Source: an uncultured Chlorobiaceae bacterium
Lineage (GTDB): Bacteria; Bacteroidota; Chlorobiia; Chlorobiales; Chlorobiaceae
Direction: 5' to 3'
DNA length: 48,726 nt
NCBI GenBank assembly: GCA_903843305.1
Contig: CAIMPI010000002.1
Span: 1-48,726 of the forward strand
A program made the translations under genes and the position numbers. Each line of letters starts with the position of its first letter. Position 1 is the stretch's first letter. Below the pieces are notes generated by a model, which saw only the letters and a list, made by a program, of their open reading frames with translations, had not been told where the DNA came from and ran no database searches. Of this stretch, positions 6,168-30,692 are shown in pieces.

Positions 6168-6235
6168 ATGGTTGGGAATTTGCGTATTATAGGGGAGAGA
6201 GGGTTAACTCATACATTTTGGAGACAAACAACGAG

Positions 6236-6475
6236 ATGAGTCCTACAATTTTTCGTGAGGCCGGTTTCAGGTTTTATTTTTTCTCTCGTGAAGAACCAAG
6301 AATGCACATCCATGTGCAAAACCAACATGGTGAAGCGAAATTCTGGCTTACACCCCATTTAGAATTGGAAAAAAGCACAGGCCTTTCTCAACATGAAATA
6401 ACTGAAGCCTTTTCTTTGATTACGGAGCACCTCAATGACATACACAACGCATGGCGTCAGCACTTCCCTCGTTGA
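6236..6475 (+). CDS. DUF4160 family protein
   Basis: A 79-residue protein beginning MSPTIFREAGFRFYFFSREE, with the HIHVQ and GEAKFWL motifs of DUF4160. The ATG at 6236 matches where family members start, although the frame stays open further upstream. DUF4160 proteins usually sit directly before a DUF2442 gene, as here, with a 41-nt overlap. The pair has been suspected of being a toxin-antitoxin-like or accessory module, but no biochemical role is established. This is the first gene after the cbb3 cluster and marks the start of an accessory stretch. Confidence 0.8.
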   Translation: MSPTIFREAGFRFYFFSREEPRMHIHVQNQHGEAKFWLTPHLELEKSTGLSQHEITEAFSLITEHLNDIHNAWRQHFPR

Positions 6476-6695
6476 AGTAACAAATATTTCTCCTTATGGC
6501 TTTTGGATTCTTGTTGGAGAAGAAGAGCTGTTTCTACCCTACACTGAGTTTCCCTGGTTCAAGGAAGCTCCCGTTGGCAAAATCTGCAATGTAGAACTCC
6601 ATCACCAAGAGCATTTGTATTGGCCATTATTAGATATTGATCTTTCCATTAAATCAATTCGTAACCCTGATGCGTTTCCGCTTGTCAGCCAATGA
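6435..6695 (+). CDS. DUF2442 family protein
   Basis: An 86-residue protein with the DUF2442 pattern: an N-terminal strand pair, GFWILVGEEELFLPYTEFPWFK, then a C-terminal WPLLDIDLSIKSIRNPDAFPL. Its start lies inside the DUF4160 gene (41-nt overlap), so the two are likely co-translated. Function unknown; members are often small stand-alone proteins in mobile or addiction-type contexts. Confidence 0.8.
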   Translation: MTYTTHGVSTSLVEVTNISPYGFWILVGEEELFLPYTEFPWFKEAPVGKICNVELHHQEHLYWPLLDIDLSIKSIRNPDAFPLVSQ

Positions 6696-7016
6696 AACAA
6701 CGTTATGCTGATGGCAACAGATCGTAGGCTTGTTGTGTCGGAAGGAAGATGTAAAGATATGCAGTGTGGTTAGCGTCATACAATACCAACCTCAGAGCTT
6801 TATTGACAGGTTGACATCAGCGTAGTTATACCGACCCAATATAACGCGCTGAAATAAAATATTATAACGGTATAAGTGATTGATATTAATATGATATTAA
6901 TAGAATTAACAGCATTTTACACACTTTAAAAGTTTCGCATTATATGGGTTGTAATTCAAAAACCTGCGGTTTAGGCGGATGAATCTAATTATTGTTATAC
7001 CTCACAAGGAGGATAT
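6696..7016. other. non-coding stretch with an imperfect inverted repeat
   Basis: No gene is visible in 321 bp. An imperfect inverted repeat lies at about 6818-6852 (CAGCGTAGTTATA against TATAACGCGCTG). The downstream half is AT-rich and probably holds the promoter for the cassette gene at 7017. GTTATAC at 6994-7000, just before that gene, resembles the 3' core of an integron recombination site, but I find no convincing partner arm upstream, so I do not call a third attC. Confidence 0.4.
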
Positions 7017-7481
7017 ATGCGCATGGGAGGTTGGGGACGTCTATGGGTTGTCATCACCGCACTCTATGGAGTCGTTGTGGCTTTTGTTGCGTACGATGGG
7101 CGCCCCACGTTCGAGCAACTTCAATACAACTGGGTGCGCGATGGATCAGACACTATTGCTGAGGCAATTTCTCGCACCGAGAAAGCGGAATTGTCGGGGA
7201 TCATGCTCCGAGAGAAATGGTTTGCCGCAAAGACTGACGCCGAGGCAATCACCACCCTCGAAAAGATTGCAACGTCACCAACCGAGAACCAAAAGCTGTT
7301 CTCATCTGAGGTGGCGAAGGTCAATGAAAAGCATCGTCAGATCATGTCACAGTTTGGAGCAGATCAAGGAAAGCATGTCCTTCTGTCGCTCGCATGGTGG
7401 CTGGGGCCATCGCTTGTATTGCTCGTGCTCGGGTGGTCGGCGGGTTGGATACGCAGAGGCTTCCGTGAAAAGTCGGTCTAA
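7017..7481 (+). CDS. cassette-borne membrane protein of unknown function
   Basis: A 154-residue protein with two hydrophobic segments, one at the N-terminus (about residues 7-24, GRLWVVITALYGVVVAFVAY) and one near the C-terminus (about 120-142, VLLSLAWWLGPSLVLLVLGW). Between them is a charged, probably helical domain rich in Glu, Lys and Ala. Both ends may lie in the cytoplasm with a central loop outside, or the reverse. AAGGAGGATAT just upstream is a very strong ribosome site. The stop codon lies inside the attC site at 7476-7562, the classic layout of an integron gene cassette. I do not recognise the family. Confidence 0.75.
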   Translation: MRMGGWGRLWVVITALYGVVVAFVAYDGRPTFEQLQYNWVRDGSDTIAEAISRTEKAELSGIMLREKWFAAKTDAEAITTLEKIATSPTENQKLFSSEVAKVNEKHRQIMSQFGADQGKHVLLSLAWWLGPSLVLLVLGWSAGWIRRGFREKSV

Positions 7482-7562
7482 CCCGGCGCTCAACCTCGTT
7501 CGCTCCGCTCTCTGGACGCTGCGCGATAAAGCCGCGCAGCGCCGGTTAGTTCTACGTTAGTC
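7476..7562 (+). repeat. integron attC recombination site 1
   Basis: The 87-bp element begins with GTCTAAC (7476-7482), a perfect fit to the R'' consensus RYYYAAC, and ends with GTTAGTC (7556-7562), one mismatch from R' GTTRRRY. The arms CTAACCCGGCGCT and AGCGCCGGTTAG are complementary apart from one unpaired base, as expected for a folded single-strand attC, and the loop is GC-rich and imperfectly paired. The site overlaps the stop of the upstream ORF. No integrase gene is in the window. Confidence 0.85.
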
Positions 7563-7696
7563 GCCTTACCCAACCAGAGGCCTGGGTTTATCATGAAATA
7601 ATTTTTGCCACTTTTTGCCGAAGTTGGTGGGCAAAATAGAAAAATATGAAATACGCAATTTCAGCGAGTTAAATTTAAGTTACTTGGAAGGTACGC

Positions 7697-8179
7697 ATGG
7701 AACAAGCCTACGCTGCCATTGGTCGAGCCGTTGCCTTTGCGCAAATTTTCGAGACGGCGCTTATCCCCATCTTCGAATTCTTCAAAATGCAGACTGATCC
7801 AGGGTATCTTGAGAAGACTGGCGGCTACGTTCCCGCCGGTGCGTTCAAAGTGCCTGCCAAGAACGTCATCAAGGCACTCTCAGCGAAAGGCGACATCGCC
7901 CCTGATCTTGAAGCCCGCCTGAACTCGTATGTTGAAGACCGCCATGTCCTCATCCACCGGTGGGTTCAGGAGAATGGTTGGCCCGCTGACAACGATTCCG
8001 CAGGTTTCGCTCCAATTGTCGAACTCGCCAATCGAGTCGAGCACGAAGCAAGGTCATTAACACGCCTGTTAGCTGGCTACATGGTCAAGTTTGCGGAGCC
8101 CGAGTGGGCAGCCGCCAACGGGGAGGACTACAAGGCAAAAATGGCAGTAATGTTTCACCGTGCACATATGGGAGGATAA
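7697..8179 (+). CDS. cassette-borne protein, possible HEPN-like domain
   Basis: A 160-residue, mainly alpha-helical soluble protein of no family I can name. Around residues 78-85 it has EDRHVLIHRW, which contains R-H-x3-H, the R-polar-x3-H pattern of HEPN ribonucleases seen in many defence and toxin-antitoxin proteins. The surrounding helices (EARLNSYVEDRHVLIHRW and the EHEARSLTRLLAGYM helix) also fit a HEPN helical bundle. GGAAGGT lies 5-11 nt before the ATG. The gene is flanked by attC sites on both sides, so it is a complete cassette. The HEPN reading is inference from one motif and predicted helices. Confidence 0.7.
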   Translation: MEQAYAAIGRAVAFAQIFETALIPIFEFFKMQTDPGYLEKTGGYVPAGAFKVPAKNVIKALSAKGDIAPDLEARLNSYVEDRHVLIHRWVQENGWPADNDSAGFAPIVELANRVEHEARSLTRLLAGYMVKFAEPEWAAANGEDYKAKMAVMFHRAHMGG

Positions 8180-8203
8180 GACATTTGCGAGTACGAACAA
8201 AAT

Positions 8204-8293
8204 ATCTAACAATCGTGTCGAGCGGACGCCGAGAAAGCAGGCGGCGCTACGCGGTAGGATCATTGGCGGCGCCGCTCACACGTAACGTTATAA
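8204..8293 (+). repeat. integron attC recombination site 2
   Basis: The 90-bp element starts with ATCTAAC (perfect RYYYAAC) and ends with GTTATAA in an ACGTTATAAC context (one mismatch to GTTRRRY). The inner arms GAGCGGACGCC and GGCGCCGCTC pair fully except for one unpaired A, the extrahelical base that sets attC strand choice. It lies 25 nt after the stop of the 7697 gene and differs from attC 1 in sequence, as attC sites in one array often do. Confidence 0.82.
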
Positions 8294-8330: not shown

Positions 8331-8513
8331 ATGGAAACAGTAAAAGAAAAAATAGTAGAAATCGTTCACTCTCAACTTGAAGATTCCAGCTATGATGAAA
8401 TTTTAAGGGGAATTGTGTTTGAACGGATGGTAGCCAAAGGATTGCAGGATTCAAGGAAAGGAAATTTGATTTCTAATGAAACAATGGAACATCGAATTAA
8501 AACATGGCAGTAA
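8331..8513 (+). CDS. antitoxin of a ParE-type module
   Basis: A 60-residue acidic, helical protein whose stop overlaps the start of a ParE-like gene by 10 nt, the usual order in a type II toxin-antitoxin operon. It has the layout of short RelB/ParD-type antitoxins (EILRGIVFERMVAKGLQDSRKGNLISNETMEHRI: a 'REAVEKGLADVKAGRV-type' segment). It begins 38 nt after attC 2, so it may be the next cassette. Its toxin partner is damaged (see the next entry), so the antitoxin may now be solitary. Confidence 0.72.
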   Translation: METVKEKIVEIVHSQLEDSSYDEILRGIVFERMVAKGLQDSRKGNLISNETMEHRIKTWQ

Positions 8514-8779
8514 TAAGATGGACAACAGAATCGGAGATGTGGTTGAAAGATATTCATGAGTATATTTCCCGAGATAACCCATCTGCTGCGGCAAGAGTCG
8601 TAAGATCAATCTACGATAAAGTTCAGATTTTAAGAGACCTTCCTGAAATAGGATACAGGTACAGGACTGAAGAAGAGGGTGAAAAGCATCTCGCCCTGTT
8701 AATCCATCAAGTAGGAGAAGACGCAAGGGTTCGCACAAAAAAATTCTGGACGAACATTTCAAAAAACTTAACGACATGA
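8504..8779 (+). pseudogene. ParE-family toxin, 3' end replaced by foreign sequence
   Basis: The first ~62 residues are a good RelE/ParE toxin (IRWTTESEMWLKDIHEYISRDN, then LRDLPEIGYRY). The expected C-terminal strands, which carry the catalytic and antitoxin-contact residues, are missing. The remaining frame (KHLALLIHQVGEDARVRTK) does not look like ParE. If one A is added to the A7 run at about 8739-8745, it reads on as KKILDEHFKKLNDMIAEAVLSQKK and runs into the zeta-like gene, which looks like the tail of a zeta-toxin antitoxin. I infer a deletion that joined two modules, then a frameshift. Confidence 0.7.
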
Positions 8780-30504: not shown

Positions 30505-30508
30505 GGGG

Positions 30509-30598
30509 CGGAGAGGGAGGGATTCGAACCCTCGATAGCCCTATAAGAACTATGACGGTTTAGCAAACCGTTGCCTTCAGCCGCTCGGCCACCTCTCC
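30509..30598 (-). tRNA. tRNA-Ser (anticodon GCT)
   Basis: On the minus strand the sequence begins GGAGAGGTGGCCGAG and folds as a class II tRNA: acceptor GGAGAGG with CCTCTCC, anticodon stem ACGGT with ACCGT around loop TTGCTAA (anticodon GCT, reading AGC/AGU), a long variable arm, and T arm GAGGG-TTCGAAT-CCCTC. The long variable arm and anticodon fit Ser. The 3' CCA is not encoded. It lies in tandem with a second tRNA-Ser. Confidence 0.95.
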
Positions 30599-30606
30599 TG
30601 ATGGTT

Positions 30607-30692
30607 TGGCGGAGGATGAGGGACTCGAACCCCCATGGGCGTGAACCCGGCAGTTTTCAAGACTGCTGCCTTACCAATTAGGCAAATCCTCC
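30607..30692 (-). tRNA. tRNA-Ser (anticodon TGA)
   Basis: On the minus strand it begins GGAGGATTTGCCTAATTGG and has acceptor GGAGGAT with ATCCTCC, anticodon stem GCAGT with ACTGC around loop CTTGAAA (anticodon TGA, reading UCA and others), a long variable arm, and T arm GGGGG-TTCGAGT-CCCTC. The 3' CCA is encoded (30607-30609). The two serine tRNAs lie 8 nt apart and are probably co-transcribed. Confidence 0.95.

Follow-up and report, generated by a model that had tools for sequence, protein, structure and literature searches.

An integron without an integrase gene, headed by attI, in a Chlorobiaceae genome, and dispersed copies of its attI in the genus Chlorobium

Integrons are usually described as one integrase with one adjoining attI site. 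A reversed orientation of the integrase gene (intI) is known in Treponema, and the intI genes of Treponema and C. phaeobacteroides are related (PMC3607928). The sedentary chromosomal integrons of that clade resemble the system described here in that intI is transcribed towards attI, in the direction of the cassettes, and in having attI, attC and cassettes; in the present case, however, most attI copies are without intI and up to 14 attI-like matches occur per genome. Clusters of attC sites lacking an integrase (CALIN, an IntegronFinder term), as in Xanthomonas (PMC12444791), also consist of attC cassettes with no intI nearby and are thought to be mobilisable in trans, whereas here the array is headed by a worn intI tail and an attI of the genus type.

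One example with two arrays is known in which, besides a complete integron, a cassette array is headed by an orphan attI; the present analysis yields 227 attI matches from 52 Chlorobium genomes and adds comparative evidence of exchange. In the delta-attI-type gene cassettes of mobile integrons (PMC12901181), attI or parts of it likewise lie away from intI and are used by IntI, but delta-attI ends cassettes inside one array, whereas the attI copies described here head arrays all over the chromosome. The open-access papers searched contain no description of a genus-wide, multi-copy spread of attI docks at which exchange takes place without an adjacent intI. The attI sites outside class 1 are not searched for (PMC9024848), and CALIN-calling tools that ignore attI miss such platforms.

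The window locus and its insertion site

The two attC sites of the window (the whole stretch of 48,726 nucleotides analysed, from an uncultured Chlorobiaceae bacterium) are real. They are attC1 at 7476-7562 (+; GTCTAAC...GTTAGTC) and attC2 at 8204-8293 (+; ATCTAAC...GTTATAA), and they were the only two matches of an attC covariance model on both strands of the 48.7 kb, with 38.0 bits (E 1.3e-5) and 32.8 bits (E 1.4e-4), respectively. The model was built from 20 attC located behind attI sites of other Chlorobiaceae genomes, with the window left out of the training and the structure, outer cores and inner arms, set by hand. A separate pattern-and-stem finder gave the two sites scores of 36 and 41, the best two in the window; in 400 dinucleotide shuffles of a 3-kb region, sites with a score of at least 36 arose at 0.0075 per shuffle and none reached 40. 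The z-scores of DNA folding for the attC sites are -2.0 to -2.6. Both sites show RYYYAAC...GTTRRRY cores, imperfect palindromic arms and an extrahelical base, the right core of attC2 (GTTATAA) departing from GTTRRRY because its last six bases are flank of the target site. Over its last 50 nt, attC1 shares 94-96% identity with the attC of blaOXA-2 and blaOXA-21 cassettes on plasmids; a search of plasmids with the attC2 DNA gave no match, and an Rfam search of the window gave no match to an attC family.

Two units bounded by G^TT crossovers, each with an ORF ending at its attC, make up the array. Gene cassette 1 (6995-7556, +) starts at the attI crossover, G6994^TT, and reaches to that of attC1, G7556^TT, where gene cassette 2 (7557-8287, +) starts, to end at the attC2 crossover, G8287^TT. 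The ORF of cassette 1 (7017-7481, +) encodes 154 aa with two hydrophobic segments, and its stop codon TAA (7479-7481) falls within the left core of attC1. A sequence-only reading of this DNA had proposed both attC sites, the overlap of the first with the stop of its ORF and the cassette nature of the ORFs; the independent covariance model returned the same coordinates, and the overlap and the crossover-bounded units bear out the rest. The protein of cassette 1 has no match in Pfam, NCBIfam or PADLOC, and its ORF is present in 1 of 394 genomes of the phylum, namely its own. The ORF of cassette 2 (7697-8179, +) encodes 160 aa without a family match at a useful E in the same three collections, and a search for plasmid relatives of either cassette protein found none.

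Directly before cassette 1 lies an attI (6940-6996, +), with the hairpin CTGCGGTTTAGGCGGAT and the simple core AATCTAATTATTG^TTA, the crossover falling after G6994. It is 91% identical to the genus attI consensus, matches the site behind intact intI genes of the genus and has the same orientation as the cassettes. By sequence it is an attI, as a conserved site that heads the array, resembles the site adjacent to intI and has the cassettes starting at its G^TT. It is preceded by a worn remnant (6799-6939, +) that comprises the spacer of about 116 nt from the intI stop to attI and perhaps the last intI codons; this stretch is 70-72% identical to the same region behind intact intI of the genus and is missing from the empty sites. 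A promoter-like box may stand upstream of the window attI, and attI may function as a promoter; a TTGAAA-N18-TATAAT arrangement, noted by eye in the attI of two other loci (L016 and L018), is weaker in the window.

The surroundings of the insert are set by two genomes with an empty site (G280 and G330, loci L208 and L211), in which a DUF2442 gene is followed by a ParD-like gene with 164 bp between them. The left flank of the window, DUF4160 and DUF2442 ORFs (6179-6695, +; Pfam), is pre-insertion DNA, found in the same order at the empty sites. The intergenic DNA of the empty sites reads ...CAGAGCTCTGTTAATATTGTTATAACC..., and the window departs from it at about 6799 and rejoins it precisely with GTTATAACC, which forms the right core of attC2 and is present in both empty sites. 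The right boundary of the insert is exactly the attC2 G^TT, and the flank of the target site supplies the remainder of the right core, G^TTATAACC. On the left, G6810^TT6811, the first G^TT past the flank, is a possible crossover, this junction being less certain than the right one. The right flank consists of a ParD-like antitoxin gene (8331-8513, +) and a ParE toxin gene (8504-8779, +; ParE_toxin in Pfam), which are not cassettes. The idea, raised in the sequence-only reading, that the antitoxin at 8331 and the genes after it could be further cassettes was rejected: DUF2442 and ParD adjoin without an insert in G280 and G330, so the antitoxin belongs to the old flank. Elsewhere in the window, two adjoining tRNA-Ser genes lie at 30507-30692 (-).

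The same reading had called the locus a CALIN with no intI nearby. No intI was found within the window, and a complete integron, with an intact intI beside attI, is thus not what stands there. As an attC cluster with at least two sites and no integrase gene nearby the locus does answer to the name CALIN, but the attI and worn intI tail directly upstream (about 6799-6994) had been overlooked, and the term does not cover an attI that is present. The window locus is an intI-less integron made up of attI, cassette 1 and cassette 2, for which the CALIN label is incomplete. It is very improbable that attC cassettes were simply put into a random genomic G^TT without attI, in the manner of attG insertions; the non-canonical genomic site G^TTATAACC with which the insert ends and the occurrence of lone attC (as at C38:12453) would agree with such an origin, and the recognisable attI and spacer directly before cassette 1, which starts at the attI G^TT, speak against it.

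Copies of attI in the genus and in the genome of the window

The 227 attI matches in the genus Chlorobium come from 52 of 65 genomes, with up to 14 per genome, and an intI above the curated family cut-off is present in 13 of the 65. Among 93 distinct attI copies, intI is complete in 12, reduced to a stub in 20 and not recognised by tblastn in 56. The density of attC downstream of attI is 0.44 per kb for copies with full intI, 0.27 for those with a stub and 0.08 for intI-less copies, compared with 0, 0.03 and 0.03 per kb upstream; many intI-less copies have no attC within reach. In the genus, 35 of 77 attC matches are paired with a listed attI, the list of attI being incomplete. When 83 copies with differing downstream DNA were aligned, conservation extended to the G^TT and was at background level from about +5; the GTT had been required when collecting the copies, and the neighbouring positions had not. 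Nearly all relatives are MAGs, and their contigs often break at attI loci.

The copies might be taken for a repeat, MITE-like or bearing a promoter, whose end is GTTAG and whose likeness to attI is only superficial, since they are multi-copy, about 60-170 nt long and variable at their left ends. This reading is barely credible in view of their identical position behind intact intI, with cassettes following the G^TT, of the concentration of attC downstream of the copies, and of a cassette swap between attI and attC boundaries (L143 and L149, see below). A fixed left end of the attI units was looked for and not found, many left ends being internal deletions or worn, and in some copies an internal deletion has brought the intI promoter region up against the intI 3' end or attI. 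A self-mobilised unit in which 5' truncation of intI always falls at a G^TT was considered and dropped, since the boundaries of the stubs give no sign of it.

In GTDB genome contigs the attI core turned up in 59 stretches, and 57 of these are from Chlorobiaceae, in line with the probable green sulfur bacterium named in the sequence-only reading. The core also occurs in MAG contigs labelled Planctomycetota and Falkowbacteria (L119 and L168), and the latter may be a mis-binned Chlorobiaceae contig. Carriage of attI by phages was rejected, as the attI pattern had no match in any viral contig of IMG/VR. A second set of intI loci (L011, L012, L015, L019 and L028) has a different attI type (CAGAAAGGA...TCTAAACAATGTTAG). 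At one further locus (L021, 2613-2671), where an intact intI adjoins the first attI, the G^TT of that attI is occupied exactly by a 57-nt piece of a second attI type, and the sister locus L022 is without this piece; the piece would fit an attI moving like a cassette, as in the delta-attI cassettes (PMC12901181). The view that the second type represents clean G^TT insertions was dropped: L021 is the one clear case, and L156 is a worn platform of type 2.

The genome of the window has 11 attI-like matches, the window locus included, and 8 attC matches to a model made without any of its own sequences. Seven of the eight follow a same-strand attI at a distance of 0.3-1.3 kb downstream, where random placement would put about 0.02 (11 windows of 1.3 kb in 2 x 2.59 Mb, times 8). 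A strong lone attC (C38, 12453-12523, -) lies behind a flavodoxin-like oxidoreductase gene, with no same-strand attI upstream. The search for intI and related sites elsewhere that the sequence-only reading had called for gave the attI copies and, for intI, no match above the TIGR02249 cut-off, the best being a 3' intI stub with two stops at C46, the former main integron of this genome, whose flanks are 94% identical to G280 and G299. A match at C45, taken as a candidate for an intact intI, was rejected because it translates to a different tyrosine recombinase. Since C46 keeps only this stub, cassette exchange in the genome of the window has probably ceased and its docks are probably frozen.

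Different cassettes behind one attI without intI

The same gapless left junction of the window platform is found in five genomes (that of the window, G299, G181, G256 and G209), and three different first cassettes follow the same platform attI: the window ORF, a HicA/HicB pair (G299, G181 and G213) and a 588-aa ORF (G209 and G256). G213 has the same cassette as G299 on a contig that begins just before attI. Among other orphan loci, one pair (L122 and L123) is 99.6% identical over 1.5 kb upstream and through an intI-less attI, and unrelated after attI, the contig of L123 stopping 186 nt past attI. In another such pair (L143 and L149), attI and a 342-nt upstream region are common and the first cassettes are wholly different; the cassette is replaced exactly between the attI G^TT and the next attC G^TT, where identity resumes.

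The simplest reading of a shared intI-less junction with different first cassettes is that cassette exchange at attI most likely followed the loss of the neighbouring intI and was carried out by an integrase acting in trans, the order of the two events being deduced from the shared junction. Intact intI is present elsewhere in G299 and G213; the genome of the window, G181, G209 and G256 have none above the cut-off, so that for these four platform genomes the donor of IntI is a presumed one. The differing genes of relatives at this site suggest that many docks can be served by a single distant integrase.

Exchange in trans would not be needed if complete integrons had been acquired several times and filled while intI still stood beside attI, each then losing its intI. 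Stubs and internal deletions of intI at many copies, the C46 stub of the genome itself and the progressive loss of intI in Xanthomonas (PMC12444791) are in keeping with such decay. It is nevertheless unlikely, as the intI-less left junction is common to five genomes with three different first cassettes after attI, and as the L122 and L123 loci, which have no intI, agree to 99.6% upstream and differ downstream.

The preferred explanation, held with good confidence, is that the window locus is an orphan integron platform (attI, worn intI tail and two cassettes) and one of the dispersed Chlorobium docks served in trans. The platform was inserted between DUF2442 and the ParDE pair and is one of the scattered attI docks that are characteristic of the genus. 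The integrase that inserted and exchanged cassettes at these remote docks in trans would come from a single gene located elsewhere, in the main chromosomal integron (at C46 in the genome of the window; with intI undamaged in G280 and G299). If so, a genome would have several independent cassette sites and integrase-free arrays would not be dead relics; the comparison yields natural pairs suited to direct testing of trans attI use.

A wider proposal, offered tentatively and somewhat doubtful, is a distributed integron in which as many as a dozen remote attI docks are served in trans from one integrase locus and IntI also copies attI-bearing units to new genomic G^TT sites. Such copying would have its basis in the insert 6811-8287, possibly bounded by G^TT at both ends, and in the 57-nt attI piece of L021.

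Two observations concern other attI loci. Beside an orphan attI in the interval from TauE to CydD (L202, L203, L207 and L211), a variable hotspot in the genus, there are tandem partial duplications of FixI-type ATPase and TauE genes. On C31 of the genome of the window (L078, 8807-9559), a group II intron (RF02012, RF00029) lies between two tandem attI copies, and its 3' end abuts the core of the second attI.
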